Below the pieces are notes generated by a model. That model saw only the letters and a list, made by a program, of their open reading frames with translations. It was not told where the DNA came from and searched no databases. From positions 1,240,001 to 1,304,000 of the forward strand of contig RSEE01000003.1 in NCBI GenBank assembly GCA_003971905.1: a stretch of DNA of 64,000 bases, read 5' to 3'. How positions within the stretch are numbered: position 1 is the stretch's first letter; every line of letters starts with the position of its first letter. Below are positions 1 to 64,000 of this stretch, one piece after another. Origin of the DNA: Moniliella sp. 'wahieum' (Eukaryota; Basidiomycota; Moniliellomycetes; Moniliellales; Moniliellaceae). The position numbers and the translations under genes are program-made.

Positions 1-1639
1 GCCCCAGGACAGAGAAAGACTTGGTTTGCGCCTCAATGTCGTACATATGGATCGATCCCCCCCGCGCACCGGCAATAATGTCTCGTCCATCTCCTGAGAA
101 TCGCACGCTGAATAGTGCCCCATCCATCCTCCTGCTGTAACCCCTTTGAGGACCCATGTCGAGCAGTACCTCTTCTCCCGCGCCATCGTCCTGCTTCATA
201 GGGTTATGGACTGGCTCCTCGTCATCGGGGGAGTACAATGCCCACTTGTTCGGTGTGTACTCAGGCGGATCTTCCTCGTCCAGGGGCGAAAACGCATCGG
301 TGGGAGGAGCCTCGGGGTGAACATAAGGTGCGATAGGTACCAAATGCACATACTGAGTGAGGGAGCTGTAAATCATCCAGTCGTTCTGCGACGACAGAGC
401 AGCATCGGTCAAAGTCCAAGCGACACGTTGCGTTGGCAAAAATGTCTTGCGCAAATCCATCGTTGTCAGCTGGGCCCCGCGTTCGTAGTGTTCGCCCGCC
501 ATCCACTCTGCAACCCCCACCTTGCCGTTCGGACCCCATGCTTGGACGCCGGGGGTAAATCCAGGCTGGGTCGCGTACAGGTGAACGCCAAAGGTCTTGG
601 TGCACGTCACTAAGAACGAACCATCGGCAGAGTATTGCGACACATACGGCATGTCGTTGTATAACGCCACGTCTCCCCCCCCGAATTGGGGATATAGGTG
701 GACAGATCAGGACGTCCCCATTCGTACCCCAACCCTGTGGCATGAGAACGAGCGTCGTACACCAGATTGGCCGGGTTGCTCGCCTCCCTAAACATAGAAC
801 TAGATGTGGTTGCCATCCTCCACCGCGACTTCAGCGTGGCCAAAGAATACTTCCCGGTTGCTTCCTCCCGTAGTTGTGCCTCCGTGGGTCCTGGCGGCGG
901 GGTTCATCCGTGAAGCGGGTCTCGAACGGAGAAGGCGTGCCGGTTTCTTTTAGAAAGGCATCCATAGCCAGGCCGCCTGAACCGGTCAGGCCCACTAACG
1001 AGTACAGGCTTGGAAAGGCAAGTACAAGAGCAGGATTCATCGGCACGTCTCCCAGCATGGCTGGGTAAATTTTGTTGGTCCAGTGGGGACGATGGGGAGG
1101 CTTGCAATCCAAAGGACTTTGTCAGTGCCAGAAAGATGTCAACGGGTGGAAAGAGTGCTTACCTTACCAAAGTCGCCGCTGAAACGGAGCTTCAGTCCCG
1201 CCCTCAGGGGCTGGGTGACCCGTGGTATCGAGGGTGGCACAACAGGTCCCATGTAGCCCCATGGGTCGTCTTCGTCAAGGTCATCGTCGTCATCGTCGTC
1301 GTCATCATAGTCATCATCGTCATCACCGATGTCATCCACCTGGTTAACGGAACGGCTTGATGCGTTGTTCCCATGGGATCCAGGATCGTCCTCAAACTGC
1401 TCATCATCGAAAGTCCGAGGGAAGAAGGGGATGTTTGCGACGTGGGGCGGCCGAAACACATCGGGGATGATGGGGCCGTCATGCGACATTGGGGACAGCA
1501 TGCCGCCCTTGGCTTCCATTAATGCGATCATCCGACGCCGGCGCGCCTCTTCGGACTGGGCGTAGAACTGCATGATGAGGTGGTGGTGGTGGTGGTGGCA
1601 GGAAGCCAACAAGCACGGCCAGGCAATTCCGCCCGCCAA
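1..1639 (-). CDS. DCAF11/LEC14B-like WD40-repeat protein, 3' end outside window
   Basis: Likely a DDB1-CUL4 substrate-receptor-type WD40 protein. The N-terminal exon (about 1639-1163) has a His run, a basic helix (SEEARRRRMIALMEAK) and a long Asp-rich tract, then ends FSGDFG at a GTAAG donor. Downstream frames read REEATGKYSLATLKSRW, IPNSG, then YNDMPYVSQYSADGSFLVTC, TKTFGVHLYAT and LFSVRFSGDGRDIIAG, which are WD40 blade signatures in the DCAF11/LEC14B order. The reading frame shifts at the C run near 672-680 and again near 850-900; both look like 1-nt errors. The start could be at 1639 or at the downstream Met near 1573, directly before QFYAQSEEARRRR. The gene is divergent from the chitin deacetylase. 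Assignment to DCAF11 rests on the N-terminal pattern and blades; the C-terminal blades are not in the window. Confidence 0.7.
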
Positions 1640-2417
1640 TCCCGATGCCCAGAATGAGGTCTCAGAGATAGAGATGGGCTGAGCTCAGCAAATTTAAATT
1701 GTGCACGTCCCAATTTCACCTACTCGTATCGTCTATCGTCACCGGTCACCGGTCACCCACAAGTCGAGCGTACCATCCTGCCCCTCCAGTATTGATGGTG
1801 GGACCAGTTATCACGGAAGGCGGGGTGGTACTTTATCTGGTGGCTTGAGAGCCGGACAAAGACGAGGAGAACCAAATACTCAAGGAAACAAAGGATTGAA
1901 GTCGGCTTGTCTGATCGACCCGGCCCAGCACAGCACCAAGGGGCATGTGTGCCGCTAGGGTTGCGTCGCTCTTCCTCCCGAGACACACCCTATGATAACA
2001 CTGCCTCTATATAGTCTACCGTGATGATCGACCCTGGTGAGCCTCACAACTAAGGCAAATCAGAGAGAACGGCAAACAGTCCCTCTTAGCTTGGCGGGGG
2101 CCAGGCCGGCGTCACGCATGAGGCCGGGGGCCTGGTGGTAAAAACGGTGAGATGGCGCAGAGGCGTGTGGCGCTTTTTCTCGCTCGCGCGAAAGCGCATC
2201 GCTCTCTTTATATATATTGGGCTACCTCCAACACCCTAAAAGAAATAACATCCTCCTTTGCCATATTCCATCCTCCCCACCCCCACTTCCATCTCCATCT
2301 CCCCAGCACCTTCACAAAGACTGTATCCCCACCCGTTCCTTTCCTATATCTACCCCAACGTTCTTTTTTCAACCAGCAGCGACCGCACTAACGCCCCCCC
2401 CCCGACCCCCACTTACG
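1640..2417. promoter_or_regulatory. divergent intergenic promoter region
   Basis: About 780 nt lie between the WD40 gene and the chitin deacetylase. A TATA-like run (2208-2218, TTATATATATT) sits 200 nt before the deacetylase ATG, and 2240-2417 is strongly pyrimidine-rich, as in many highly expressed fungal promoters. No gene is seen here. Confidence 0.5.
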
Positions 2418-3872
2418 ATGTTTAACGTTGCCGTTCTCCTGGCTACGGCGAGCCTCATGGCTGGCCATGCCTGTGCTCATGTTGGTGCGGGATTTCCCGG
2501 GCGTCTTGCGCCCGCGTTGCAAGCCGATGTGGCGAAACGTGGCATGCAGCGCCGCCAAGCGAGTTATAATGACCAGTCGTGGCAGACGATTACGGACGCC
2601 GCGACTGAGTGCAAGTATTACAACTACGCCCCGGCCTCTTCTTTCACCAAGGCCTTCCCCGCCAATTGGCAGATTGCCGACATCATGCCTGGTGACCAAG
2701 AGGCCCAATCGGTATGGGCTAACATCCAAAAGCAAGTAAATCCCCAACACGCCTCCCAAAGGGCAACCATCGGGGTCCCAACAGGGTACTCAGTATAACG
2801 CGGGAGAAGATCCTGATTGCTGGTGGACGTCATCGAAGTGCGTTCACCCCAAGGCCCCTGGAGTCCCCCCCGACACGTTTACGTGCGATGAGCCGGGTAC
2901 CTGGGGTTTAACCTTTGATGATGGTCCCAACTGCACCCACAACGCCTTTTATGATTTCCTCAAGTCAAAGAAACAAAAGGCCACACTCTTTTACATTGGC
3001 TCCAACGTACTCAACTGGCCGCTTCAAGCTCAACGTGGCCTGACTGACGGTCACCAACTTGCAGCCCACACTTGGTCTCACCACTACATGACGGCACTTA
3101 CTAGCACACAGGTATTTGCTGAGCTTTTCTATACCGTCAAAGCTATCAAATGGGTCACTGGTGTCACCGTGACCTCCTGGCGTCCGCCCTTTGGCGATGT
3201 GGACGACCGCGTCCGTGCGATTGCCTATGGGTTGGGGGCCTTGAGACTATCATCTGGACTGATGATACTGACGACTGGAATGTTGAGCCCCAAGGCTCTG
3301 TTGCCACCTCCCAAATCGAGGGCAACTATGCGTCGATCGTGAGCAAGGCCAAAGGCCCCGCCGGACAGACGGGAGGTGTGGTGGTCCTCACTCATGAAAT
3401 CAACGCAGACACCATGCAGCTGATGATGACTGGTGCGTTTCTCTCCGTCTCTCTCTCATGTATTTGAAGATTCATGGGACTCACGAACTAACTCTCCGTA
3501 TACGCAGAGTACCCCACGATCGCTGGGGCGTACAAGTACATCACCCCTGTGCATGTGTGCCAAAACAAGACCCAGCCCTACCGTGAGGCATCCTTTATTA
3601 CCCCAACTTTGAGCAGTACACAGGGGGAACATTATGCCTTCCGGTCTTCCCTCAGCCAGCGACATCACTGCCTCCTCCGTCGCCTCCATCGAGGTAGGCA
3701 TCGTGTCTTCCAGCTCTCAAGCTACCCTCCAACCCAGTGTCTCTGGATCGGGCGGAGGAAGAAAGCCGATGACCAGACCTCCAAGTCCGGTGATGTGACG
3801 CTTGTTCCGCTGGCAGGACTGGGCTCTGCTGTCCTCGCCGCCCTCGGCGGCGCTGCTGCCCTCGCCGTCTAA
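2418..3872 (+). CDS. GPI-anchored chitin deacetylase (NodB/CE4 family)
   Basis: Predicted cell-wall chitin deacetylase that converts chitin to chitosan. The start is followed by a signal peptide (MFNVAVLLATASLMAGHACA). The polysaccharide-deacetylase domain shows all NodB motifs: TFDDGP (metal Asp), HTWSH (metal His pair), RPPFGDVDDR, DTDDW and VVLTHEI. A 75-nt intron lies at 3433-3507 (GTGCG...ACGCAG); after it the protein resumes EYPTIAGAYKYI. A Ser/Thr/Pro-rich stalk precedes a C-terminal hydrophobic tail ending AALGGAAALAV, typical of GPI attachment. Frameshifts: one extra C in the C run near 2742 (VNPNTPPKG restored by removing it), one missing G near 3236 (GGLETIIWTDDTDDW), and others in the stalk near 3600-3770. 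All catalytic residues are intact, so I read these as sequencing errors and the enzyme as functional. Confidence 0.9.
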
Positions 3873-4605
3873 AACGTTTTTGTATTCTCTGCTGTGGATG
3901 ATGGATTCTCTGCCGACACGATCCTGGCATACTTTGATGACCAGTTACCTGACCACTCTTTTTCCTTGCAACAAAACTGGACCTCGCACTGGGAGTAATG
4001 TTGACACCACGGCCGTTCAATTGATCCGGCATTCGCACTGTGCCCATCATCTTAATTTTTGGCTGGTATATATACACAGCCCTTATATTTTTTGCTCTTT
4101 TTCCTCTGCTCTAGTACTCTAGCAGGGGGCACATTTCCTCTTCTCATCCCCGCTGGCTTACGCTGCTCTTACTCTCCACGAGGACATTCATTTGAATGAT
4201 GGTTGCGCACGATCAGAAGTGAACAAACCCTTCACCATGCAGAGGTGTGAACAAGTGAACGTTGAAGTAGAGCTACTGCGGCGGGTGGATGACATAAGCT
4301 CGTGATCGCATAGCGGCGAGGGATGCATGATGCGTGGTGCATGGTGCATGATGGGGCGAAGGCGGGGGCGCAGGCGTTCTGGCGCAGACACGCGGCGCGT
4401 CCGCCCGGCACCCACCCGCCCTTCTTCCCCGGCCAGCACAGTCACTAGTCAGCCCTGGCGCTGTCTTGGGCGCCATTCGCGTCGCAGTGCGCTTGCTCTT
4501 CTTTTGCTCTTGCTGTTGTTCTTGCTCTTGCTCTTGCGCTCACGCCCATCCCGCCCTCTTCGCTCCCTTTATCTTTCCTTGCGTGCCCCACCCCTGTCCC
4601 TCGCC
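3873..4605. other. intergenic region upstream of the APSES gene
   Basis: No gene is seen. The part nearest the downstream ATG (about 4490-4535) is an imperfect run of CTTGCT/CTCTTG hexamers, likely the pyrimidine-rich core promoter and leader. Around 4320-4352 there are clustered ATGCATG-type words (GATGCATGATGCGTGGTGCA). Confidence 0.4.
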
Positions 4606-6635
4606 ATGGCGCCCAAGAACGCCGTTGAGGGCCAGATCTACAAGGCCACCTACAGCGGGGTCCCAGTGTACGAATGTGTTATCAACAATGTCGCCGTCAT
4701 GCGCCGCCGTGCCGACGATTGGCTCAACGCCACCCAGATCCTCAAGGTGGTGGGCTGGACAAGTCCCAGCGCACCCGCGTTCTTGAGCGCGACGTACAGC
4801 GCGATACCCACGAGAAGGTTCAGGGCGGGTACGGCAAGTACCAAGGTAGTTGGGTTCTGGCAGAGCGTAGGAGGGTGAAGTTGACTTATGGCCAGGCACC
4901 TGGATCCCTATGGAGAGTGCTATCAAGCTTGCTCACGTCTACAACATTGCTCATCTGCTCCAACCGATTACGAGCTACATGTCCAGTACCGCATCGGCCC
5001 CCCCGGCACCCAAGCATATCACCACTAGTACCACCAAGGCCAAAAAGGCCACCCCGGCTGTTGCCAAGGCTAAGCGCGAGCTTACAGCTGACTCGGATAG
5101 CATCGACCTTGATGCCTCCTCCCGTAGAGGCAACGCAGGAGGGCAGGCAGTCCATCCAGCTGTGAGCGATGGGAGCCTGAGTCCCTCGCCCAGTGAGGCC
5201 TCCAGCTCTTCTCGCACTCCTTCGCCGATGGATGCGGCGGAACCCTTTCTCCCGCGTGGCTCGGGCCTGGAGCCAGATCAGTATGGCCGCTTCCCCGGGA
5301 CGAGGTGGACAATGGGGCGCGCTATGCGGAGATTATCCTGGACTACTTTATCTCGGAGAGCACGACAGTGCCCCACTGCTTCTCACGCCTCCGCCGACTT
5401 TGACCCGAACATGTCGATCGACGATGACGAGCACACCCCGCTGCATTGGGCCTGTGCAATGGGAGGGTACGGGTTGTGAAGCTGCTTCTATCTGCGGGGG
5501 CGGACATGTTCCGTGTCAACACTTCGGGCCAGACGGCGCTGATGCGAGCGGTCATGTTTAGCAACAATTACGATCTTCGCAAGTTTCCCGAACTCTTTGA
5601 TCTTCTCCATCGCAGCATTCTCAACATTGACCGTTCCGACCGCACCGTATTCCACCACACGATTGACCTTGCGCTCAGCCGTAGTAAGCCACATGCTGCC
5701 CGGTACTACCTCGAGACGATGCTCACGCGTCTACGCGAGTACGGCACGCAATTGGCCGAGATGCTCGACTTCCCCGACGATGAGGGCGAGACAGCACTGA
5801 CCATGGCGGCGCGTGCCCGATCCAAGCGTCTGGTACGCATCTTGCTCGAATACGGCGCGGACGCCAAGAAACCCAACCACGAGGGCAAGTCGGCGGAGGA
5901 TTATATTGTGGAAGACGAACGGTTTCGTGTGTCTCCGCCTCGGACGGAACCTGTGGCAGCCGTCAAGATTGCCCCGCTTCCTTCGCGAGCACATGTAGGT
6001 GAGGCAGCGCAGCGAGCTGCAGATCAGGCGGGTTCCATCGCCTCCAACCTAACTGCACTGGCGGATGCGTACGATGCGGAGCTGGCCGAGTCGGACCGGA
6101 TGCTCTCGCAAGCTCAGGCGTTGCAGGCCCAAATCTCAACCGAAACAAAGGAGAACGCAGGGTGCTTGAGACACTGGCCCAACGTGTCAAGGAGAGAGGG
6201 GCCCTCGAAGCACGGGGCCATGTCGCGCCACGTCTCCAGGCAGCCGTGGTCAAACGCCGGGCAGAAACTTTGGCTCGGTCCTATGCGTCCTTGCGGGCTC
6301 GCTCCAAACGTCTTCGCACCGATGGTGGACGTTCGTCTCTACTCCCGATGCGGCCCCGGGCACAGTGGAAGCCTTCCTTCAGCCTCCAACAGACTTGGCG
6401 ACCGACCTGGCAGGGCTCGGGACGAGGTTCTTCGCGCCCAAAAGGCGTGCTGGGCTGCAGAGGCTAGCTACTGCGATGCAGCTCTTGCTGCACAGGGCAC
6501 GGGGCCTGCTATGGCCGCCTACCGCCGGTTGATCTCCCTCTCTTGTGGGGGAGTGCCGGTAGAGGGGTGGATGCGGTGGTAGGAGCATTGGGTAGCATGC
6601 TGGACCACTCTGGCGAGGCACCGGCGGCCATATGA
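4606..6635 (+). CDS. MBP1: APSES-ankyrin cell-cycle transcription factor (Mbp1-type, MBF subunit)
   Basis: Predicted DNA-binding subunit of the G1/S factor MBF. Residues about 5-100 form the APSES/KilA-N domain: [34 protein letters not shown], then [19 protein letters not shown], including the intron at 4846-4895 that splits YQG/TWIP. A Ser-rich linker follows. The ankyrin region has [31 protein letters not shown], and [20 protein letters not shown]. The C-terminus is helical and ends near 6635 with the Mbp1-like tail [12 protein letters not shown]...VDAVVGALG. Start chosen at the ATG directly before the APSES domain. Frameshifts are visible near 4755 (missing T in GGCTTGGAC), 5310-5390, 5462 (missing G), 6160 and 6560; each is repaired by one base. 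The domain order and motif density make the call strong; Swi6-like alternatives lack the N-terminal DNA-binding domain. Confidence 0.9.
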
Positions 6636-7843: not shown

Positions 7844-7851
7844 TATATATA
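7844..7851 (+). promoter_or_regulatory. TATA box of the LEA-like gene
   Basis: TATATATA preceded by CAA and followed by a C-rich run, 89 nt before the ATG at 7940. The spacing fits a fungal core promoter. Confidence 0.55.
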
Positions 7852-9336: not shown

Positions 9337-9348
9337 TTGGTACTTGGT

Positions 9349-32640: not shown

Positions 32641-34344
32641 TTAGACCGTCTCTTGTACACACATGCTCCACCTGCCGGTTCTGTAAGTAGCAACGCATCG
32701 TTCAGCCCGTCTTGGTCCAACTCTGGGTGGCGTACGGCAAAGTACTCCTCGGTCAGCGCCTTGATTACGGCAGGCACCTTGCTCCAGGGACCAATATGAC
32801 TGTGGAGCCTCCCCAGCCCGCACCTGGCACAGAAATTGTCAGGATTACTTCTCAACATGAAATGGGGTCAACGGACGTACCTGTCAAACGAGCGCCGAGA
32901 GCGCCGGCCTTGCGCGCAATCGTGGTGACCTGCTCAAGCTCAGGGCAAGAAGCCTGGTAAAAGTCGCGCATCGAGTAGTGGGATTGGTTGATGAGCTCGC
33001 CCAGTTCCTTGTAGAGCGTCGCTGCATCGGCCTCTGGGATCTCGCCATTCTCCGCCCGCGACGCCGCGACTTGGAGGAGGGTAACGAAGCGGAGAGTGCG
33101 GTAGGCCTCGTCAAACACGTGCTTGGTGCGCTTGAAAAGGTCAAACTTCTCTGCCTTGACAGGGAAGATGGTGAGAAATTCTTTGGTGAATGCGTCACCC
33201 TCATACCCGGTCAACACCTCCGCCTCGGCCCGCGTCACAGGATCCTTAGGCAAGTGGGAGAGCGCTACCGATTCGAAAAACTTGATGCGTGCACCTTCTT
33301 CGCCGGCTTCCTTGAGTGCCTCAGCCCGCTCATCCGATGCGACGTACCACAGCTTGTCAACAGGATGGAGCTGGAAGTACTCGCCCAAAATACCATTAAG
33401 GGTGTAGTTGGTAGCAGTAGGAGCGATGCCCAAAGCCTTGCCCAGCGCTCGCGTTGCCATGCGCAGCTCAGCCGTACGGAGATTGTAATGAATCGGGCCC
33501 GACACCTTCTTATCCGAAGCGACGAGCGTGTTGGCAATCAACCACTTGTACGACTCGGTTTTTTCCGGGCCATGCGGGGCAAGAATAGGGTGGATCCAAA
33601 GGTGCGGCACAAAGCCAATGTGCAGCAAGTACCCAGGCCTGCCAAAGATGGAGGCCGACTGGTCCATTCCACCGGAGCTCACGCCCACCAGCCGCTCGAC
33701 TCGATAGCCACGTTGGCCATCTCTTTGCGGTCGATAAACTGACGCACGCCCAGCGCCTCCAGAATCAAAATGCTACTCACTGTCGTCATGGCGGCCGAAC
33801 TGGACAAACTCGACTCGGGGGGAACCGTGCCATCGACCAAGATGCTCACCCGGACAGGCTTGGGTGTCGTCGCGGCGGTCGTAGCGGCAGGCAAGTGCGG
33901 CACAAGGCCATGGAGAGCCACCTTAAAGTAGTTCGCCCACCGGTCAGGACCAGAGTTGTGGAGCTGCACATCAGGTAGGCCTTCTTTCCAGGAAGTGGTA
34001 AAGGAAGTGCCCTCAAAACGTGGGGTGACATTGTGGAGGACGAACTCAGTCGTCTGGTTGGGCGGGGTGGTATTCTTACTCCACTCAACATGGGTCGCCA
34101 TGAGGATATCCATCTCAATGGAGGCGGGCAAGACTGAAAATCCCTGGTGGTCAACATGCTCGCCAATCATGTTGACGCGCCCAGGGGCGCGTGCGACGAA
34201 GTCGGGTTGGGTACCAAACTGGGTTTGGAAAGCTTGGCGGAGAGCGTTCCAGCGCGCCTCCTCGCGGGGAAGGCGCTCCGCCGAGTAGATGGCGCTGAGC
34301 GTGTCGTGCACAGGAATAACGTCGTCGGGGTGTTGCGAGGACAT
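32641..34344 (-). CDS. GAL1: galactokinase (GHMP kinase, Leloir pathway)
   Basis: Phosphorylates galactose at C1. The N-terminal galactose-binding signature is APGRVNMIGEHVDHQGFSVL; the ATP-binding GHMP motif is VPPESSLSSSAAM; then NVAIESERLVGVSSGGMDQS, with the DQS catalytic Asp. The C-terminal part reads RMATRALGKALG, INQSHYSMRDFYQASCPELE and GALGARLTG, then after an intron (GTACGTCCG...GTGCCAG, about 32823-32880) AGWGGSTVILVP and KALTEEYF, ending ACVYK. A single missing base near 33690 splits the gene into two frames (ESER read as ESSG). A second shift near 32790 and uncertainty at the very end leave the stop between 32641 and 32660. The GSG that normally precedes LSSS in the ATP motif is ESS here. 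No GAL7 or GAL10 neighbour is in the window. Confidence 0.92.
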
Positions 34345-42800: not shown

Positions 42801-43190
42801 AGGAGGGTGTGATAGAGTCCTCTTCACCCCATCTGCACCCACTAGTCACTGTAGCTGTGCCTCTCCGCCGCAATATCCAGATCCGATATAGGGGGGGCAT
42901 TTCAAACAGTGAGCGTCAGGTCATACGGTATGTTGATATGCGGGCAACTAACTTCTCTCTACTCTCCGAGTTTTTTTGTTGTCCCCAACTCTGAACGCAC
43001 TACATCTAGTCTTTAACATAGAGAGGCAAACACTTATAAGCCAGTCATGCGGGTCATGGAGACCGCCGGTAGTAACCAAAGTGCACTCAGCCACAGGATA
43101 TAATAATACAGACAAAAATGAGTATGGATAGTAGGTGGGTATACCTTCAGGGCGATCAGCTCGTACCACCACCACATAAGAAGCCAAGAC
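39862..43190. other. intergenic with minor repeats, no gene recognised
   Basis: About 3.3 kb. Contains the (ACC)10 run and a cluster of GCCACCAGCCTG words near 41870-42030, including an 8-bp inverted pair AGCCTTGC/GCAAGGCT. Frames here are short and without recognisable domains. Confidence 0.4.
41085..41114. repeat. (ACC)10 microsatellite
   Basis: Ten perfect ACC units. Confidence 0.95.
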
Positions 43191-44444
43191 TCAAAAGCCC
43201 ACCCTTGCCTCCTCGTCGCCTGCCTTCTCCTCAGGCATCATATGCCGCTGTGAAGCAGCTGAATGTTCGTCCATGTGCATGACTTGGGTCTCGACCGTAA
43301 ATGGGACAACGCCCATGTTGTGTCTGTGGGAGGGGTTGGACGGGAAATGGGTAATGGAACTGTTCTCACAACCCTTGATCCCCGAAGTATTTTCCAACTC
43401 AACTTGATCAGCGATGACGTGGGTGCTAGTATCCACCTGGATTGCCGACAGGCCTTCCTTCGCTCTCCCACTGCCCGAGTTCGAAAAAGTGGATAGGACA
43501 CCTTTCAAGTCCATGTTCCCTCCCAGCTTCAGCAGCACGAGACGGTACGCACAAATTGAGGTACAGGCGTTGGCTAGGGAGCCGTTGATGTCGGAATAAA
43601 GCCAGCTTTTGCTAAAGAAGAGCGCATTCAGCAAATTGACGCCCAGGGCACAGAAAAAAATCAATCCGTCAGTCATGAGACGTTGCTGGACCACCTTGGT
43701 AAGCATTGTTCGTTTGCTCAGCTTGAAGTTCCCATGGGCATCCAAAAAGAATGACCCAAAGGCGAGCGATGTAATGATCGTATCGTAGACGATGTTGGTG
43801 ACATAGTAGACCCAGGGAACCTCATGACCGGGCATAGCGAAGACGCACACACCCAAGTTAAGGGCATGAGGACGAAACCAGTTATTAAGGGCCATATTGA
43901 CCGAGAGTTGGGCAGACCACAGGATAGCGACGATGACCATGATGTATCGGTTTCGGCGCCACATCGCCCAGGTGCGCACGGAAAAAATGAAGGATGCGGA
44001 AGAAGTAATTACGCTACCAAGAAAGATGGAAGCACGGCCCACATTGTAACACTCTTCGGTCGTCCAGGATTTCCTCCGGATAACATGGATGTAGAGTCCC
44101 AGGCAGATTGGGGCAGTGTAACGTGCGACAATAAAGGCTGGCGTGACGAGCCATTTGAATCCCCGTTTGTAGTACATTTGCAGTTCAGCGGGAAATGTAA
44201 GTAGGATGCTGCCATGAGGATACCAGTTAGCGCGGGCTGGGCACAAGAGAGATGAGCCGAGAGGAGTGAGCGAGTGGAGATAGCGAGGCAAATACATACT
44301 CCCACAGCAGGAAAGCTAGGGCAGCCGAAATGTACATCCCTCGCACCAGGTCCTCTTCCAAAATGGCAGTGGGGATAAGAGGGGGCAGCTGTACCCTTAC
44401 TCCGGGTGGGCAGGCAGGAGCAATTGGGATGCGTTGTCCGCCAT
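43191..44444 (-). CDS. DUF6533-type multi-pass membrane protein
   Basis: A seven-helix-like membrane protein of a family common in Agaricomycetes; role unknown, receptor-like by topology. Start MADNASQLLLP; one missing base near 44400 restores VRVQLPPLIPTAILEEDL and RGMYISAALAFLLW. A 91-nt intron (44209-44299) yields the family signature LLWDILLTFPAELQMYYKRG. Further membrane segments: WLVTPAFIVARYTAPICLGL, SIFLGSVITSSASFIF, YIMVIVAILWSAQLSVNMAL, VYYVTNIVYDTIITSLAFGS and LMTDGLIFFCALGVNLLNAL. The last helix precedes SICAYRLVLLKLGG, a typical family ending. A hydrophilic tail of about 100 residues with Ser/Thr and acidic residues follows. If the intron is not removed, the frame runs on to a spurious start at 44297. 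Confidence 0.85.
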
Positions 44445-46902
44445 GGTTGGAGGATGCAGGTGGTTGGAGGTGATGAAGAGAGCGGGAGGTGGGGATGCTG
44501 GTGCTGAGGGTTGGAAAGAGACTAAGAGCCTTGTGAAGCTATAAGGCCCAAAGGCCCAAAAGAAACGCATCATAACGCTAACGCGAATTCTCCTCATACA
44601 GGAAACATATGTGCAGGCACAATAGAGGCGAAATCTCGTTGAAATCGTTGATCAGTATCAGTACACCAGTACGCAGCAGTAAAACGTAAAGACAGTAATC
44701 GAGTAATCGAGCTAATCCTCAGTTTCTCGGTTCTCAGTTAGGCTCGGCGCGCGCTCAGCCAGCCCACGGAACGTGGAACGTTCAGCACGTTCAGCGGATA
44801 TGTCACTAGAGCACAGTGCCTCTCACTCGGTACCGGGTACCAGTGAGTAACTCAATACTCAGACATACTCAGGCACTCTCAGTACTGAACGTAACTCGGT
44901 TCAGACGTTCAGGCCTCAGGGCCTCAGGGAGTACGTCTGCGTACTGAGTCGGAGTCATCAGATCTCAGACCCAGTGCGACTCAACGTTTCAGCGATCTTT
45001 CGATCATCGATCCCAACGCCTCAACGATCTCGATGTATACCTACGTAATATAGTCACCGCACTCACCATCTGAGTGCTCTGATCGGCAGCCTGAGGGCCT
45101 GAGCCAAGTCGTAGGTGACCGGTGACCGGTTCAAGTAGAGCCGCTGGTCAGCCGCCCTGATCCACATCTACCCATTGGCGCCACACCACCACGCACCATG
45201 CATGATTAATGATTAGTGAGAGACCGAGTAAGAAAAGGTATTATGCAAGTACCAAGTACTGAATGATTTCCTTCTGTACTGTCGGGACTGGTACTGGCGC
45301 CGGACGCAGACTATGCCTCCCTTTTTTCCCCCACCTGTCACTGTTGGAGCCCATCACTTGCATCCGCTTGGATTGGGCCTTGAGCATGCGACGGACCCAT
45401 AGATAGCGGCTCGCGCGATAGGAGTTGGTGATATATTGGGAGAGCTACCCGTGACTGGGTGGCTGGACCCGCCTCTGGCCTTCCGCCATGTTGCGGGAGG
45501 GACACTGGAAGGAGGAAGGGGCGGGTTGTTGGACAGACGGCGGCGCCTCTCGGCGCAGCACATGTCCCACCTAGCCACGTGGCATAGAAGACTGTGATGC
45601 ACTGATTGGCTTTGGACCACTGGTGGCCAAGAGCGCAGCTTGAAGCTGCTACGCACCAAGCTCTTAAGGCATTTCCAAAAGCGGCTACTCGTACCAATAC
45701 GTACGTACATTCCATTTTTGCTTCAAGCTTCAAGCGTCGCCTGTCACACTTATCACACATTTCACACCACATGGGGCGGAGAGGCTGCTCCACACAGAAC
45801 CCTATCACAAGAACACTAGCTTTGTCGCATAATAACTTCATGCATGTCTCGTGTTTCCCTTGCCCATGAGTCAGGTCCTCACTGGGCGTAACTCTGTGGC
45901 ACTACAGCTTTCCATTAAACTTCTAATTAAAAGCTGCCAATCTCGACCTTCTTCAAACAATTCATCGACACCACACCGAAGTATTTACAGAACGCCTCCA
46001 TCCCCGCAAAGCCATTTCTTTGCAATCCACAAGCCACACCCTACCACACCAGCATTTCTCTCTTACATATTAAATGCACACATGCGCAATTGAAGATGAT
46101 ATTATCGATCGATATCTCGATTATATCATTGCATCATGAATCGAATCAATCACTAATCTCTTCATTGTGCACAGGGCCGAACGTATACACCCTCTCGGCC
46201 CGATTTTTTCGAGCATTTTATATCTTGTCGATATATCGTTCAAACCAATGTGACGAAGTTTACCTTCCATTCACCACTATCATGGCTTGAAGCTTTTCAT
46301 CCATATCCACTTGTGCGGCATCCCCACTTGGAGACGAATGGCGGCTGCCGGAGGTCCAAACCAGCATCGCCGGCCCTGACCTACCCTCACCAGTGAGCTC
46401 ACTAGTCACTGCTGAGGCTCAGCTGAGCGCGTTGAGCGATCAGTGAGCGAGCTGATTCATGATCGATGATCGATGATATAGAAGGACCGAGAAATGGCCG
46501 AAGTCCAACGATTGCTGCCATGCACCATGTGCCATGTGTAGAGACAGATAGTCCATGGAGAGACTAGCACCTAGTACAGAAAACTATGCCTCGCAGTGAA
46601 GCATTCTCACAACACAAACACGCCACAGTCTCCGTCACAGTCAATTAGTCACTAGTCCCTAGTGGCTGCTCCAATGTCACATGTCACGTAGTAGATCACA
46701 TGTCACATGTCAGATCGACTGTGGCGTTGGCGCCAACGGCCCAAGGCGAGGAACCGGTTAGGGTTATTAGTACTTAGCCGGTTAGGCCGAAGGGCCTATA
46801 AGGCCTTAGGCCGTTACGGTATAAACGGTGGCAATAAAAAACGACCCCTCTTTCACGGGCTCCGTCTGCTTCGAGCGGCCGAGGATGCAGGATCTCACGC
46901 TA

Positions 46903-46982
46903 AGCTTCAAGGTTCAACGTTCAAGCTTCAAGCTCAGCGCTCAAGCTTCAACCTTCAACGTTCAACGTTCAACGTTCAACCT
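46903..46982. repeat. TTCAACG/TTCAAGC heptamer-like cluster
   Basis: About eight tandem or near-tandem copies of TTCAACG and TTCAAGC variants. The same words appear in the 21.6-kb region. Confidence 0.7.
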
Positions 46983-48589
46983 AGAGCAAGAAGCGCTTCA
47001 AATATAGTAACAATCCCTATAGTACAACAGCCATATCATTTCCCCCGAGGTTAAACGTTATGCGTTAAGTGAACACTAAGTACTAATCATTAGTCACTAG
47101 TAACGAGTAAAGTCACTAATGACTTAGTGAAACTCACTAGTCACTATTAGTAACTGTGCGGGGAAAATATAAAGAGTAACCGGTAACCGATTGCGGTAAC
47201 CGAGAACCCTCCCTAAAACTCAGAGCGGCCGAGGCCTGCTGATGCAGACTGGGGCCCAGCTTGACGCCGAAGTGCCTGAGCAGGCCCTGAGCTCTCAGCG
47301 GCTCTGCACCGAGCCAGTTCGAGCCTTCCGAGCTGCACAAACCCCCAAACATGAAGCCGCGAGTGCTCTTCTCGTTATCGAGCCACCCGGCGACTCGTGT
47401 GTGTTTGGTGGCCAAAAGGACCCTACGTCCTGAGTTCCTCAGGCCTAGGAGCTCCGTCGTTTTCCTGCTTCTATACTCCCTTTGTTCCTCAGCTACTAAC
47501 GCACCTTGGTGGTGACTGGCTGCTTGATGTTCCTCTGTATAGGCATTGTTTTCTGTTCGTCGCTTAGACCACTGCAATTACCTTAATTATACCTCTCCAC
47601 TAGTGCGATTGTATAACCGTCGGGGACCATCCAGACTTCAGGGTCACAATAGAGGAACAGCCCTTTTCGCTCATCCAGAGTGAGTACTGAGCAGCGCCGG
47701 TGATCGCCCGGCAGCACTCACTATTCCCATACCCTTCGTCCTGCATATTTCGTCAGCCTCTGAATCAGCGCCACTCCACACTGTAATATATCTCTGTAAC
47801 CATCAGTGCCTTCTGAAATCGGGTTAGGCCGAAGCCCTCCTCCTTCCGTCTCGTTTTCCTGTACAGAACGATTCACCTCTTCGAGCGTGCTTCTCAGTTG
47901 GCCCAAGATCAGTTCAGCCAATACCAAGCTATTAACCATTCAACAGACACAGCCTGTAAGGTGGCCACCAAAGCCAAAGGCGACATGATTTCGCGACTTT
48001 CTGCAGTACCTATATACATCTTATTACCAACCGACGTTCTCATTCGACCAAAAGATCGCAGAAATGGTGGGTGAAAGACCCGAGACGCGTGTACTACCCA
48101 TGGATATGTTCTCCCAAAAGCATCTCTCGCGCGTCAATTCAACGAGGTGATGATTTGTTCTATACGGTGTTTTGTTGGATTTGCGCTATTCATATTGGCT
48201 CTCCCCTCCCAGGCTGTCGTAGGGGGCTAAATCCCACAGGGCCCGATAAGGAGAGAAACTAAGGAGAACATCATGAGGGGAATGGGGACAATCGGATGAG
48301 GAGTGAAGCCACACGCGTTAGCCATTGAAAAATAAGGGAAAAGGGAAGACTAAAAAGGAGTCTTAATTGGGGGATACGACGAAAACGATGGAAGAGAACC
48401 AAGAATAAGAGCATTCGTCTCTTCTTTATTTACGCACCCCATCTGTCCAGCCGCAACGCTCTACGGATGCATACTGCATCAGAACGCCAGTGATAATAGG
48501 AGGGCCACACTGCCAGGGAGATTCGACCCGACCACACACCGCTCCCGCCGGCAATGACAGGGGAAAAGGACAGAATGGATTACAAGAAA

Positions 48590-48852
48590 GAGGAGGAAGA
48601 GAAAGAGGAGAGGAGAGGAGAGGAGAGGAGAGGAGAGGAGAGGAGAGGAGGGAGAGGAGAGGAGAGGAGAGGAGAGGAGAGGATAGGAGAGGAGAGGAGA
48701 GGAGAGGAGAGGAAGGAGAGGAGAGGAGAGGAGAGGAGAGGAGAGGAGAGGAGAGGAGAGGAGAGGAGAGGAGAGGAGAGGCGAGGAGAGGAGGAGGAGA
48801 GGAGAGGAGAGGAGAGGAGAGGAAGGAGAGGAGGGAGAGGAGAGGAGGAGAT
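48590..48852. repeat. GGAGA pentamer microsatellite
   Basis: About 260 bp of almost pure purine, mostly GGAGA units with a few interruptions (GGGAGA, GGATA, GGCGA). Both strands give long artificial open frames (GEERR or LSSPL repeats) that are not genes. Confidence 0.95.
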
Positions 48853-51673
48853 TATCCACGCGTTGGCATCAACATTTAGTTATTCCATTTCTCAGGATGC
48901 TACACGGTAGGAGGTGCCAGCGTGCTTCCGTTCTATTCGACCCCCCCCCCCCTGGCTGTACATGAGAGCTCCGGTGCCTCGAATCAAAACCTTTTGAAGT
49001 AGAGGTATAGTAGTAAGGAGGAACCCTTGCCCAAAAGACATGTTGATCACGGATGCAGAAGAGTTTGGGGACCACTTCGGGAGTCCGTCTCCCTGAATAT
49101 AGGAGGCTATATAGCTCTTATATGCCAGAAGATGTGACAATGTAATTGTGGTCACCAGAATGTGGACAAGCGACACCACACCCTACCGGCTTGCGCTCGA
49201 CGAAAAATCCAAAAAACTATGCATGGTTTCCACTCGGGTTTCAGTCTCGTTTCCTGACTCGGATCCGCTTTGCCCTTGATCCTCGCCTCGTCTCTCATTC
49301 GAGCCTCTTGTGATTGGTCCTCACTTTTCTCCTTGATCGTTCCCCTTTCGCTGTATGTAGACCTGTTGGCCTTTCCTTTTTTATTATTCCCCTTTCTTCT
49401 ATAAAACATCTGCCCAATGGTATAGCCTAAGTCGCCCACCCTTCTTTTCCTCTCACTCTTCTTCTAGGTGACTCCACTCTACAAGAACCACCTTTCGATC
49501 AGTCGTCTTTCTTCTATCGGAGCCCCGCTTGCTCGTCCGACCCCTAACGTGAAAACCTTCTCCTTGTAGACACTGCCTGGCTCTGTCCGACGAACAGTAA
49601 TGCACCAACATCTCTCCGGGTAGCATCCCATGCACTGTCCACACTTGACTCGTCACGTTTGTAACCTTTTTTTGGTACCTGGCATGCTCATCACTTCCAT
49701 GATCCCACAATTTGGACCGTTCTTCCTTTCCCTCCTATAATAGTGACTACGCGCATGAGACGAGGAGCGCACTCCTATTTCGGGGGTTCCCTTGACGCCG
49801 GAAAAAAGGACGGGACTTGGTCGGCCACGCATCCTTCTCCAGGATGTTCTTGCTGCCGTGCGTGTCGGGCTGACGATTGTGACTCTCCGAAGGTGAATCT
49901 CTATAGTGAATACTGTATCATCGACCGATAGAGCTTACAAAGAAAGGCTACGCCTCACCCGACCTCCCAAGGGAATCGCGCGCAGAGCAGGACCCTCTGA
50001 CCCTTCATCCGATCCACATATACCCAAGGCAGCGTGTGTGGCTACCAATGAACGTGGTGGGCACCTGAGCGGTGAACCATATCCATTGTGACTCGGTATT
50101 TTATTCTTTCCAGATCCCAAACATCTTGCTCGCCGTCTTGATGGCATAGTACTCTGGCGTCGTCGGAACCAAAGGAAGAAGGGTTCTTGGAGCGTCCCAG
50201 ATACTTGGCGTTCTTTTGTTGCATTCAGTTTGTTTTCCAACAGTATAAGCAGCCCTTTCTCTCTGGGGTGCCAATGGGCAGTGCGATCGTGTACCACCCC
50301 CGATACGCTACTTTTTGCTCTTGTGTTCCCGAGGAGTCTTTCGTGTGGACCACCTCTATTCCTGATCCTCCGAATGATCCAGGTCGATCACAAGGGTAAT
50401 ACTCCTCTTTCTCGGGATCATCGTGAAGCTTATGTAGGTTTGCTGAGGGCGATGAGGTACTGAGAACACTGCTGCGGTCCCTCGGCTTGACAGCTGATCG
50501 CGCTAGGCCCCTGCCCAATTGCCCACCGATGCATCCTTTATGCCTTGGACAAGTCCTACTCGAGTCATGTTCCGGGAAAAGGTAGTATTCGTGACAGCGT
50601 CCAGTTGTGGGGAATATCATGATGCAAACTCAACAAGTGAGCCAAACGCTGTGGAGAATATTCATCCATACATCAGGCGACGAGAGCTCCGAGACGCACT
50701 CTCTGTGCGCAACATTTTTTGAGCTGAGTATCGTATCGTACACATACAATCCATCCAGCTATTCGTTGACACATTGTAGCCAAATCTCTTGCCGAGAAGT
50801 CCGGCAGCCTGCATAAGATCCGCGACGAGATCGACCTGGCTGCGGAACAAGGAGATCAGAAGGAAAAAAAAACATCAGAGTTCCTAGCAGGTTGAGGAGG
50901 GACAGAAGGGACCTTGACCACACGTACGAGACCCACCCCGGTAGCTCAGCATCCCCCGGGCCAAAGGACCAAAGGAGACTTCTCCATATAGACAAACAAA
51001 ACGTTAAGAAAAGGGACAATGAAACCAGAATTTTAAACAAAGGGGAAAAGGGCCAAATAGAATTGCTGACGGTTTCAATGATGTCCCCATTTATACAGAG
51101 CATCCCGAAGAATACCATCTGCCTAGCTTGTGTTGCCAACACCGCTTGTTAGCTAGGCGCTGGCAGCACCTCTAACCGAAAAGGATATATTGCCCTGTCT
51201 CTTCGTTGTGTAATACCGTGCGATGCGGGAATGCCATCCCTCGTGCTGTGGCTCTGGCTCCAGCAGATGATGCATCACGTGATGCCGTGCGGCGAGGCGG
51301 AGATACGGTGTTGCACCGACCGTACCCTCACTCTGTCAGATCTCACCGCCTCCCCGAGACAGCATGAACGCATGCGTCGAGCGTGCGCACCGGCCACTGC
51401 CCCCGTGGCCGCCGCCCGTTGGAAGCTGCTCGAAGCGTGGCGGGCGGCGGCACCCCGGCACGGGGGCAGTGGCCTGGCCGCCACCCCGCCAGTGCTCTTC
51501 TGCCGCCGTTCGGGGCTTCCCGCACTCGGCCTTCGGCCACAGTCGATTGCACCCGCTCCTCCTTATTTCCTCCAGCGCACACGACAGCCACAGCCACCTC
51601 CGTGTCACCACCTCTACCACCACCACCACCACTCTCGCACCGCGTATACCCACACACACATCGCACTCCTATC

Positions 51674-52957
51674 ATGGTCAAGTGAGTATCCGCCCTCCCC
51701 CCTGTCTCCGCCTCCTGTGCGCGCAGCGCTGACCCGTGCTGCTCTCCAGGGAAACCAAACTCTACGACATGCTCGGTGTCGCGCCCGACGCTTCTGAGGC
51801 CGAGCTCAAGAAGGCCTACCGCAAAAAGGCCCTGTCGGCCCACCCGGACAAGGGCGGCGACCCGGAAGTGTTCAAGGAAATCACTTCCGCCTACGATGTC
51901 CTGTCCGATTCGGAGAAGCGCGACCTGTACGACCGCTTTGGTGAGGAGGGCCTCAAGGACGCGGCGGCATGGGCGGCATGGACCCCTCTGACCTGTTTTC
52001 TCAGCTCTTTGGCGGTCGTGGCGGCATGTTCGGTGCTGGGTCTGGCCGTCCGCAGGGCCCCGCAAGGGCAAGGACCTTGTGCACCGCATCAAGGTCTCGC
52101 TCGAGGAGCTGTACAATGGCAAAACGACCAAGCTTGCGCTGCAGAAGCATGTGATTTGCAAGGCTTGCAAAGGTTTGGGTGGCAAAGAGGGTGCGGTTAA
52201 GACTTGCTCCGGCTGCCATGGCCAGGGCGTCAAGTTTGTCATGCGCCAGATGGGTCCGATGATCCAGCAGCTTCAACAGACCTGCCCGACTGTGACGGCA
52301 CGGGAGAGATCATTGATCCCAAGAACAAGTGCAAGGTGTGCAATGGCAAGAAGGTGACGCCTGAGCGCAAGGTGCTTGAGGTTCGGATTGACAAGGGTAT
52401 GGAAGATGGTCAACAGATCACGTTCAAGGAGGAGGCCGACCAAGCCCCCAACACCATCCCTGGTGATGTGGTGATTGTGGTAGATGAAAAGCCTCACCCC
52501 CGCTTTAAGCGGAGGAAGAACGACCTGGTGACGGATGTGCAGATTGACCTCCTTACCGCTCTCGGTGGGGGGCAGGTCAACATCCCCCACCTCGACGACC
52601 ACGCGTTGGCGATTGAGATTCCGCGCGGCGAGGTGGTGAAGCCGGGGGAGACTAAGGTCCTGCGTGGACAGGGTATGCCCTCTTATCGACACCACGAGAT
52701 GGGCGACTTGTACGTCAACGTGTCTGTCACGTTCCCCGACTCGATCCCGGAGGACAAGATTGCCTTCTTGGAGAAGGCGCTGCCGCCTCGCAGCGCGCGC
52801 GGAGAATGTGGGCAAAGACGTTGATCTCGAGCCTGTCGTGATGGAGGACATGGACGAGCGCGAAGAACGCAACGCGCGGCAACCAATGGCGATGTGGATA
52901 TGGACGGACGAGGATGAGGATGGGGCTGGGCCGCAGGTTCAGTGTGCCCAATCTTAA
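51674..52957 (+). CDS. YDJ1: class I DnaJ/Hsp40 co-chaperone, Ydj1-type, farnesylated
   Basis: Cytosolic Hsp70 partner. The first exon codes only MV plus two bases of Lys; a 68-nt intron (51682-51749) follows, then [20 protein letters not shown]. The J domain has the HPD motif in [15 protein letters not shown] and [12 protein letters not shown] short G/F region ([19 protein letters not shown]) precedes four CxxCxGxG zinc repeats ([32 protein letters not shown]). The substrate-binding part reads [20 protein letters not shown] and [20 protein letters not shown]. The end is VQCAQS, a CaaX box like that of Ydj1. Frameshifts near 51958, 52060, 52290, 52795 and 52890 are single bases in G/C-rich spots, and every motif flanking them is intact. 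Confidence 0.93.
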
Positions 52958-54369: not shown

Positions 54370-57082
54370 GCTACAGGCTGCGCCCATGTCACGCAGGACG
54401 GCGCGCTGCTTCTGGAGCTGCATCGGGAAGCCGTGGAAGGCCATGGTGAACGTGCCTCCGCCCCGCGCTGAGGGCGCGCAGGCGCGACGAGTACGCCACC
54501 AGGTTGCTTAGCGGCGCCCGCGCCAGAATCACCGACTTGTCGCCCGATTGCGACAGCGTATCCCCGGCCGCAAGCGACGTGTGGATGAGCTCGGGGGGCA
54601 GGTAGACCTGGTCCAGCGCCTTGGCCGTCCCCACCGCCCCGTCACCCGCAACCTGGGCAATGTCGACCACTTCGCCCTGCTGCGCGCCCGTCAGGTCGCC
54701 CACCACTGCCCCACCGCCCCCGAGGGCAGCGCGACGGTGACGTCCATGTAGGGCTCGAGCAGGACCGGCTCGCCCTTCTGCAGAGCAGAGCGGATGGCAC
54801 GGCTGACACACGCCTGCAGCGCAGCTGGCGGTGTCATTTCTTCCCCAAACGTCTCGACGCTGTGCACACGCACCTTGACCTTCACCACCGCACTCCCACT
54901 CAGCGGCCCACGCAGCAGAGCCGCACGCACCCCGCCCGAAGCGCACGCTCGACCCGTGCCACAGGTGAATCAGCGTCCAGCTCATCGGTTTCGTCCGCGG
55001 GGTCTTCGCTGGTCTCGGTCAAGTTGGCATCAGTAAGATCAACCTCCACCACGTTTTCCCTGCGGGCCGCGGCGGCGGCCGTGGCCTCGTCTACGTCCTC
55101 GGGTTCAGGCAGCGGTTCAATCTCCACCACACACGCCGCCTTCATGGGACGCCCGCCGATCGGACGGTCGAGAAGCTGAGCCTGCTGGACCGGCTGCTGG
55201 ATCGTCTCACGGTACGAAACGCGAATGTCACCCAACGAAGCACGTGCCTTGAACTCGTCGCGTAACCTGCCCCTGGCAATGTCCAGGTGCAGTTCGCCCA
55301 TGCCACTCAGGGTCGACTGGCCACTGCCCGCACCGTCGCCCGAGATGGACTGATCATCGAGCCTGAGGGAAGGATCGGTCCGTACCAACATGGCCAAGGC
55401 CGTCTGCAAGTCCTTTTCATCCGCCTTGCCACGCGGTGCAATCGACATGCTAAACACGGGCGGCGGGATGGTGATCCGGGGCAGCTCAAGCTACGCAGCG
55501 CCATCGGAGGCGCTTGGGCGTGGGACTTCTTGGATCCTTTGACCGCCAGCGCTTGTTTCTCATCAATCAATGTGTCTCCCGTCGCTGTCTCCGACAGGCC
55601 GACCACCACACCAATTTGACCGGCTTGCAACGAATTCACTTCCACGTAGGCATCGCATAGGGAAGGAAGATCTTGGACATGCGTTCGCGTGTCTGGGTAC
55701 GGGTGTTGAAGAGGGTGCTGGACGACAGCAGCGTGCCACTGTACACGCGCACAAACGTTTGCACACCCATCTGCGGGGTCCAAACCACCTTGAATGCCAA
55801 CAGGCTGAGATAGGGATCGGTACGGGCGACAACGAATGACTCCCGGGCAGGAGGTTGGGCCGCCACCGCATTTCGTGCAGCGCGTTTCTCTTTGGCTGAC
55901 TTGGGCGCCTCGAGCAGCGGAAGGCCCGTTGCCTGCACGGGGGGACGGTCGGTGGGAGAAGGAAGAAAGTCGGCAATACCATCCAACAAGGGCTGGATGC
56001 CAATGTTGCGAGCACCCGAGCCACAAAAAACGGGAACAATGCTGCCGGCCAACACTTGGCGCCGAATGGCCCGGCGTAGGCTCGGCTCCGACACCCATGC
56101 TGTCCATCTCATCTGCCATAAGCATTTCCTCCAGCAACTTCATCCACCCCAGCCACCGTTTCGACCAGCGCAGCGCGCGCCTCGGATGCCGACGCATACG
56201 CCACGTCGTCCTTGTGCAGCGGCGCACGGCTTACCACCTCCCCAGCCGGTCCAGCGAACGTCAACCGTTCCATCCGCATCACATCCACCACTCCCGTCAG
56301 CGAGACATCCATGCCGGTCGTGGTATAATCAGGGAGGATGAGGACAACCGGTCGTGGGTGAAGGCCTTTGGCCACAAAGGAGATGAGGCTGCGCCGCAAC
56401 GAGCTACCGGGACGATCGAGCTTGTTGACAAAGAGCAGGTGGGACTTGACCCCGTACCGTTGCGCTTGCGCCCACACGCCTTCCGTTTGTGCCTCGGCGC
56501 CCTCGACACCATCGAGGATGACCACTGAGCCATCCACCACCCGCACCGCGCGCTCCACCTCAATGGTAAAATCAATGTGGCCCGGGGTGTCGACGAGACT
56601 GATCGCGGCGCGGCCGCCGCCTTCTCGCGACCAAAAGACCGGACCCACGGCAGCGCTTTGGATGGTGATGCCCCTTTCGCGCTCGGCCTCGAGGAAATCG
56701 GTAATGGTGCTGCCCTTGTCCACGTCGCCGGGGCGCCAGCGGCGGAGATGGCGCCCATGGGGCGCTGGTCAAGTGCAAGATGCGTTCGGTGCACGTCGTT
56801 TTGCCAGCATCAATGTGGCTATGATGCTAATGTTGCGAATCTCGTCGGGCTTTTCGATGCAGCTTGCGGTCGGCACGGCCTGGGGGGGCGGACGTGGTGA
56901 GGGGCGCGGAGGGCGACAGGGACAGGGACAGAGACGGCGGGGCGCTGGGCACGGCAGGGGCGAGGGCGGAAGGGCGAGCACGCGCGGAGCGATGGTGGTG
57001 GCGAGGTCGGCGGCGGGGCCAGTGGGGGCCCCGCATGGCGGCGGAGGCTCACGCGGGCGGGCAGGCGCGGGAGGATGCGCAT
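54370..57082 (-). CDS. MEF2: mitochondrial ribosome-releasing factor 2 (EF-G2mt, GFM2/MEF2)
   Basis: Predicted mitochondrial translational GTPase that recycles ribosomes. The start MRILPRLPARVSLRRHAG opens an Arg-rich presequence of about 85 residues. The GTPase domain follows: RNISIIAHIDAGKTTCTERI (P loop; one C missing near 56813), DKGSTITDFLEAERERGITI, AISLVDTPGHIDFTIEVERA, and LLFVNKLDRPGSS. Later domains: VPVFCGSGARNIGIQPLLDG, GRPMKAACVVEIEPL, TLSGMGELHLDIARGRLRDE, and near the end VYLPPELIHTS and GGTFTMAFHGF. Between VVEIEPL and the next strand lies an acidic insert (EPEDVDEATAAAA, LTETSEDPADETDELDADS). The stop is uncertain (54365-54395). Frameshifts at about ten places, all single-base. 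The retained GHG..LS motif order favours GFM2 over GFM1 and cytosolic eEF2. Confidence 0.88.
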
Positions 57083-61727: not shown

Positions 61728-62643
61728 TCAGATGCAACTGGCTTTTGGCTGGGGGGGAGCAAACCGTGAGGCGTGAGTGGGCGCAAGTGGCACGGGCCCT
61801 TCCTCCATCTCAGACTCGTGGGTGGCAACGGCAAGGGTGAACGTCGTGTCCATTCCCCCCTGGGTTAATTGATGGTGGTGCGGATAAAGGCCAGGAACCC
61901 CACAGCGAGTATATGCGACAGGCGGCGTAGCCGAGATGGAGGTTGCATCCAGCGGAGTCACCGTCTTGTACAGGCGTTCTCTCCGCTCGATTCAGGTGGA
62001 GGAGGTAAAGATGAGGTCAATCAGCCCCCCACAATAAAGAAATCTCGTCACCGACCTACACAGTACATCTCGCCGCCGGAAACGGAGTGGGTGCCACCCT
62101 CTCTTCGTTGCAGAAGAAGCTGGCGCAGATTGGCGCCAGTGTAGCAGAGCGAGGTAGGTCGGAGCCATTGTCGCTCATCCGCAGTGCCGTGTCGTGGGGG
62201 CATCGGTTTGAAACAGGTGCAAACCTTCTTTCTGATGGTTCTCCTTGTTCCCCTGCTGCAGGGCAGGGATGCCAATCAGCAGCGAGTACGAATCCACCAT
62301 CTCTAGCAAGCGGGCCAACAGCGCCACACATTCCGTCACAACTGCGCACGAACGCGTCCCGCTTGCCCTCGGGCCACAAATCTTCCTTGCTCATTAAACT
62401 CAAAATGGTGGTGCAGGGCAAGGGTAGGTGCAGATTCACCACCTCCCCCCCGTCGTCTCCTCCAACACACACCCCGCTCTGTGGCGGCAGAGTCAGGGTG
62501 TGATGAATCCGCGCCAGCTGCGCAGAATCGGAGACATCGTCCTCGACCGATGTCGAGCTGGCCGTCGGCTGGTGCGGGTCAGATCGGGCGGGGAGCGTGA
62601 CGAATGGCCACTGGCAGATAAGGCGCACTAGCGGCGCACTCAT
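61728..62643 (-). CDS. unidentified protein, frame broken
   Basis: Starts MSAPLVRLICQWPFVTLPAR and reads on through SSTSVEDDVSDSAQLARIHH, GGEVVNLHLPLPCTTILSLM and SKEDLWPEGKRDAFVRSC to GPLARDGGFVLAADWHPCPA. After that the best frame is unclear. A second segment (61961-61728) gives TPLDATSISATPPVAYTRCG and VPGLYPHHHQL, possibly a later exon. The composition is protein-like, with charged and hydrophobic alternation and no low complexity, but I recognise no family. It is divergent from nothing: the next 1.3 kb to the window end has no gene. Confidence 0.35.
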
Positions 62644-64000
62644 GGTCGCGGCAGGCGATTAAGGTGAATAGCGTCGAAGCTAATGCAGCGGGATGGATCG
62701 CAGGTCAGCAGCTGGGGCTTGAGAGCTGGACTGAAGAATTAGTAGAGGGTGCACCTATGACAATAGTTCTCCTGCCTTTCGGTCTCGCTCGGCCCGCTCT
62801 GGTCCTACTCGCCCCAAGCGGAATGCTCCGTTGGGTTCTGCGTACCAATGCCAAGGGATGTGGTTGCAAGTTGCTTACCTGGCCGGCAGTGCTTGCCGAT
62901 TGTGTGGGGCGTGGTGCAAAGTGCCGTAAGCCTGTGGCGCTTCCCACCTCTCAGAGTGAGATCTCAGACTGGAATCTCGTATCTCCGTCACAGATTTGTG
63001 GCAGCCCAAGCCAAAATCCGAACGCCCAAAGCTTATAATTGCCTGTGTCCCTCACTTTTTGTCTTCATCGCATGTGCTCTCCCTCCGCGCTCGGCGCTCC
63101 GAGAGGCTGAGGAGGCTCGGCAGGGCTCGGCTGGCTCGGGGCTGGCGCTCAGCCGCTCAGCTAAAGTTGCTCAGTACGTATCAGGGATGCATGATGTGCA
63201 TGATGGTAGAACTCAAATTGGCTTCGTTCTTCCTCCACGTAACCGCGTAACCACATAACCACCTGTCACAGTCACATGTCACACACTAAAGTGCCCTCTA
63301 GTGCGCTCGGGACCCCATGGGGCGCAAGGCCAGTGTTATCGATTATCTCGGGCGGCTTGGACCCGGAGGGATGTACAGACAGCAGCTATGTTTTGCTCCG
63401 GCGGCGTTTGGCAACAATGGCAAGACCCATAGCACGGAGCGTACTCAGACTGAGCACTGACAGTACTGACATGGTCGATAGTATGTGCCAAAACCACCGG
63501 AGAGGACAGCGGTACATTCTTGCCGTTGGCATGCGCGCGGCACCTTCCCAAACGCAAGCGCACACTTGCGTGTCCGTGCGGTCCAAATCCTTTCCAGTCC
63601 ATATTAGTCTTTTGGTGCGCACATGCGTTGAACGTTGACGGAGAAGATGCTTCAGAAAACTTGACTAGCTTTTAGATGTGGCATGTGACATGTGAGAGCC
63701 GTATATAGCTGCTGCCGGCCAGGGCTCCTTTCATTGACCTGCCATGCCATCCCAGCCACCGCCCACCGCCCATCCTGGCACCCCGGCCCCACACTGGCCC
63801 CTCCAGCCACCCCCGGGAATCGATAAGCTTCTAGCATCGTGCTTATCTCACTGTGGCTCAGTGGCCACTAGGTCACTCCCCCGCTTATTAGCGCTTACCT
63901 CTTCTCCCTCCCCCCTTGGGGGCAGTTTCGCTTCGGCAGTGATATTCCTAGCAGAGTGCCAGTCTGCCCCACTTCTCTGCGTCGGCTGCCCCTCTCAGAT
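62644..64000. other. intergenic, no gene recognised
   Basis: No supportable gene. Short words such as GCATGTGACATGTGA (63677) and CACATGTCACA (63270) recall those in the 46.6-kb region. Confidence 0.35.

Follow-up and report, generated by a model that had tools for sequence, protein, structure and literature searches.

Frame-breaking indels in a Moniliella sp. 'wahieum' assembly are most likely consensus errors rather than broken genes

The short frame breaks found in conserved genes of the Moniliella sp. 'wahieum' assembly are, we are confident, mostly consensus errors in an under-polished assembly that keeps two sister copies (probably haplotypes) apart, with noisy long reads as the most likely source. 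In the genes sampled, the indels are private to single copies, rich in missing bases and nearly independent of divergence, and together with the agreeing picture from the rDNA this points to consensus error and not to decay, frameshifting or editing. The assembly (GCA_003971905.1) comprises 69,493,810 bases in 223 contigs; the window, by which we mean the whole stretch of 64,000 nucleotides that was analysed, corresponds to C3:1240001-1304000 (contig RSEE01000003.1).

Results

The genes that had been named as broken from the sequence alone are indeed present in the window as split or truncated Pfam domain matches on stop-to-stop pieces. The polysaccharide (chitin) deacetylase-like gene (2151–3342, + strand) occupies two overlapping frames with breaks near 2742 and 3236, and Polysacc_deac_1 matches the 2740–3339 piece and not the 2151–2795 piece. 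For the gene called Mbp1 (4306–6582, + strand; breaks near 4755 and 5462), ankyrin repeats were detected on the last of four pieces, the others being without a Pfam match. Symplekin (28500–31744, + strand) carries SYMPK_PTA1_N and Symplekin_C on separate pieces, with the break near 31095 lying ahead of the C-terminal piece; galactokinase (32852–34413, − strand), in two overlapping frames broken near 33690, shows GalKase_gal_bdg and GHMP_kinases_N on one piece and GHMP_kinases_C on another; and the split DnaJ (Hsp40) gene (51733–52824, + strand; breaks near 51958, 52060 and 52290) has its DnaJ and DnaJ_C domains on two different pieces. In the translation GTPase called EF-G2 (56112–56826, − strand; break near 56813), the first part lies in another frame: the GTP_EFTU match begins at profile position 37, so that the P-loop part is missing. 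Mbp1, chitin deacetylase and EF-G2 are designations of the sequence-only reading, with Pfam supporting ankyrin, polysaccharide deacetylase and GTP_EFTU only.

A second copy of the window region is present on contig C45, and a 1.8-kb symplekin stretch is 99% identical between the two copies. We aligned 80 kb of C45 (loci L003-L010) with the whole window; the aligned stretch (30–63964, unstranded) contains 57,559 matches and 1,818 substitutions (3%), together with 685 one-base and 200 two-base length differences (885 of 1–2 bases) as against 89 of three bases. The one-base differences are nearly balanced in direction (326 and 359), and these directions cannot be polarised because only two copies are compared. 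An open frame of 795 codons at 37488–39872 (− strand) has no Pfam match, and its coding status is uncertain because its substitutions show no more than a weak preference for third positions (28/61).

The break points coincide closely with length differences between the copies: nine of the ten listed points have a 1–2 base difference to C45 within 10 bases (p = 1.6e-5, 23.4% of positions being this close by chance), eight within 7 bases (p = 3.0e-5; chance share 17.7%) and six within 5 bases (p = 7.8e-4; chance share 13.5%). C45 differs in length at both deacetylase points and at 4755 in the Mbp1-named gene; the symplekin break is accompanied by differences at 31056 and 31085, the galactokinase break by one 7 bases off, the three DnaJ breaks each by one at most 4 bases away, and the GTPase break by one 6 bases off. 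At eight of these nine points the nearest difference is a base absent from the window relative to C45; at 3236 it is the window that is longer. Point 5462 is the exception: the copies are alike, and the overlapping tblastn hits of its two frames overlap likewise on C45, which may represent either a genuine change or an error that recurred in the same sequence context. There is a small chance that the few breaks common to both copies, among them 5462 of the Mbp1-like ankyrin gene, are real frame changes or shift sites concealed among the errors.

The frames could in principle be restored in the cell by programmed ribosomal frameshifting or by RNA editing of the insertional type, and domain matches do pick up in another frame past the breaks. 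Such mechanisms should, however, leave conserved sites, whereas none of the 41 short events in the three CCT families described below is common to two copies and the sister differs near all listed points except 5462. As conservation of putative shift sites between copies is thus lacking, we rejected programmed frameshifting, and we consider either mechanism extremely improbable as the general cause. When window frame pieces were searched against the sister with tblastn, hits were split on both sides and gave no clean assignment of errors to either copy; errors were therefore assigned to individual copies only in families with several copies.

Within the Pfam-matched spans of the listed genes (4,655 bases, taken from the matched window pieces, a choice that favours clean stretches), we counted 24 differences of 1–2 bases to C45, 60 substitutions, one difference of a multiple of three and one other. 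This corresponds to 5.2 short differences per kb of pair, or approximately 2.6 per kb per copy, with individual spans ranging from 0 to 11.5 per kb: the 336-base matched span of the translation GTPase is without a short gap, and over 978 bases the DnaJ gene shows 11 gaps of 1–2 bases versus 9 substitutions. The N-terminal symplekin frame is open over 685 codons in the window and split over several frames in C45, the latter being longer at six and shorter at five of 11 sites.

Short differences are unevenly distributed along the window (variance 22.9 at a mean of 6.9 in 500-base bins), with 58 one-base differences to C45 in the 2 kb at 60–62 kb. The claim that GC-rich stretches are worst was not supported overall, given that density is uncorrelated with GC in 1-kb bins (rho 0.00) and barely correlated in 2-kb bins (rho 0.13). 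Among the stretches singled out, 51–62 kb does stand above the remainder (18.9 differences of 1–2 bases per kb, compared to 13.0 elsewhere), but 7–9 kb (14.0) is close to average and 18–20 kb (7.5) falls below it; the two stretches described as nearly clean are indeed lower, with 5.6 per kb at 28.6–30.4 kb and 1.9 per kb at 37.5–39.1 kb. A separate region, 42001–50000, has a GC content of 0.50–0.53, below the rest of the window, and is among the more divergent stretches between the copies. The homopolymer enrichment expected of consensus error was observed in the comparison with C45: the number of one-base differences per run climbs from 0.009 at length 1 to 0.17 at length 5 (approximately 19-fold) and level off beyond, with 326 of the 685 lying outside any run. 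This pattern looks like that of a consensus built from noisy long reads and not thoroughly polished; such reads are the probable technology.

To tell error from biology we used three tests on which the two make different predictions, namely widely essential genes elsewhere in the assembly, inheritance in relation to divergence, and selection on frame. For the first, we examined the Cpn60/TCP-1 genes, comprising the CCT subunits and Hsp60, which are widely essential. A frame break was defined as a joint between matches that changes frame with an offset below 30 bases, the offset depending on the ends of the profile matches; 103 of 105 matches were entered (two nested rows were omitted), and copies were counted for the family as a whole. 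Of 40 clusters, 31 contain such a joint (48 joints in total) and nine do not. A strict count, made by hand, retains 35 of the 48 joints as off by 1–2 bases, in 26 of the 40 clusters, and at 25 of these 35 joints a single base is lacking; the remaining 13, off by 5–20 bases, are less certain. Clusters of the actin family, including actin-related proteins, show 12 joints in 11 of 22 clusters (48 of 69 matches entered, weaker rows omitted). Both families also display intron-like joints that add 49–148 bases, putative on the basis of sequence, and one may ask if introns have been misread as frame shifts. An offset of 1–2 bases, as found for the 35 strict CCT joints, is nevertheless impossible for a spliceosomal intron, although the other 13 joints are less decisive, and the sister copy differs by 1–2 bases near nine of the ten window points; we therefore give introns hardly any weight as an explanation.

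Several CCT genes (loci L027-L056) have, besides their sister copies, further copies at approximately 82–89% DNA identity, which suggests an old duplication or a hybrid origin; two copies of symplekin were found. The terms sister haplotypes and homeologs, as used here, follow from pairwise similarity. We aligned 23 of 30 CCT loci in seven families, the omitted seven either overlapping used loci or having no relative in hand, which afforded seven sister pairs with 0–2.4% substitutions and 22 homeolog pairs with 10.5–17.0%. Short gaps number 3–8 per sister pair (mean 5.6, n=7) and 3–12 per homeolog pair (mean 7.1, n=22), these means being summed by hand and descriptive, as the pairs reuse copies and are non-independent; F6, a single sister pair whose alignment extends into noncoding sequence and which shows 16 short gaps at 4.8% substitutions, was excluded from them. 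At the extreme, the L027 and L047 copies of one CCT gene show no substitution in 1,644 aligned bases and yet four short gaps. Indel number is thus nearly independent of divergence in the CCT pairs, as consensus error predicts, and this points to error, since real indels should accumulate together with substitutions.

The events can also be assigned to copies. Five families offer at least three copies; by hand count, their 68 short events comprise 62 missing and six extra bases. Families F1-F3, with four or five copies each, contain no short event common to two copies (0/41, counted by hand), and one 3-base gap common to a sister pair; in F4 and F5, which have three copies each, a base lost from the lone copy is indistinguishable from a gain common to the sisters. 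The indels of F1-F3 are accordingly private to single copies, as consensus error predicts, with window point 5462 as the exception.

These data also bear on real decay, in which gene copies of a polyploid genome would be degenerating to pseudogenes, shielded by the remaining copies. Redundancy does exist, as the 40 Cpn60/TCP-1 clusters illustrate, but symplekin is broken in both of the only two copies found (C45 over several frames, the window near 31095), and 15 of its 23 substitutions within the frame fall at third codon positions. Pseudogenes were hence rejected: neither the loss of purifying selection nor inherited disabling changes were found, given this third-position excess and the F1-F3 gaps unshared by sister copies. 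As short gaps moreover barely accumulate with divergence and the rDNA is hit too, we assign decay only a very small probability.

The relation of the gaps to the reading frame was analysed in blocks conserved between homeologs, which were taken as coding and may include introns. Across seven sister pairs (11.7 kb of block), 39 gaps of 1–2 bases were found versus three whose length is divisible by three. Sequence outside the blocks exceeds them in density by a factor of 3.8 for substitutions and of approximately 6 for multiple-of-three gaps (19 versus 3 events), compared to 2.6 for gaps of 1–2 bases (8.5 versus 3.3 per kb of pair, the latter being approximately 1.7 per kb per copy). Inside the blocks, frame-breaking gaps are therefore less depleted than substitutions and frame-keeping gaps; selection acting on real changes would give the reverse. 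A reading in which every short length difference is natural variation between two haplotypes could draw on the 3% of substitutions between the copies and on flanking DNA that has larger gaps too; however, the 39 frame-breaking as against three frame-keeping gaps and the excess of gaps over substitutions in near-identical copies leave this with almost no likelihood. Consensus error should strike coding and noncoding sequence evenly; the higher density outside the blocks probably reflects, in part, genuine polymorphism, or alternatively a greater proneness of noncoding sequence to error. Not all 885 differences of the window need therefore be errors.

The rDNA offers a comparison free of any reading frame. 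We compared 8 of 14 places: L020, L021, L022 and L024 differ pairwise by 1–3 substitutions versus 7–13 gaps in approximately 1,490 bases of 5.8S-ITS2-LSU, and across all 28 pairs substitutions range from 1 to 38 and gaps from 7 to 22. L023 and L026 appear, by eye, to have one length difference in common. Since rDNA has no reading frame and yet displays a gap excess, it supports the reading of the indels as errors; disregard of frame, as error predicts, was observed in the conserved blocks and in the widely essential CCT genes, with the rRNA genes affected as well. More than one rDNA sequence type is present. The 5.8S/LSU sequences look fungal, and a search for class III cyclases gave seven matches. 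The 5.8S rRNA matches (n=14) span 150–155 bases; nine of the 14 lie within approximately 3 kb of a contig end (L019-L026 being among the contig ends), as an assembly interrupted within rDNA would show, and two more lie 15–16 kb away.

Discussion

The core of the sequence-only reading, that the frame breaks are sequencing error, is supported by our results: the indels of the sampled genes are private, mostly missing bases, heedless of frame and nearly flat with divergence, and the rDNA shows a gap excess too. Its details need amendment, in that GC does not predict density, 5462 is common to both copies and some of the indels outside conserved blocks are probably real differences between the copies. 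Several observations count against error: besides 5462, the uneven density is not expected of uniform random error, and to these we add the 2.6-fold density of short gaps outside the conserved blocks, the 326 of 685 one-base differences outside runs, the balanced directions (326/359), the six longer versus five shorter symplekin sites, the length difference that L023 and L026 seem to have in common, and the nine of 40 Cpn60/TCP-1 clusters that lack a frame-changing joint. The data as a whole are best explained by a consensus with short errors, most likely derived from noisy long reads that were poorly polished, where we infer both the type of reads and the insufficient polishing from the pattern; every contig would then bear short errors particular to it, mostly missing bases, and the genes would be intact in the organism.

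The finding is of an already described kind, namely frame-breaking indel error in long-read assemblies: for example long-read assemblies, the Kastor paper reports 23.3% pseudogenes owing to residual indels, and 5.6% after correction (PMC12007338). As in that case, short frame-breaking indels are spread across genes in the Moniliella assembly; unlike that case, which deals with small genomes for which raw reads and reference genomes exist (PMC12007338), we relied on sister and homeologous copies of one assembly with a probable read type. Comparison of sister and homeologous copies helps to separate error from biology without reads.

In this Moniliella assembly, the breaks are most likely assembly mistakes rather than broken genes. 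Many genes will probably come out split or truncated when it is annotated automatically, gene predictions are not to be trusted base by base, and apparent pseudogenes, gene losses or frameshifts read off the assembly are unsafe.
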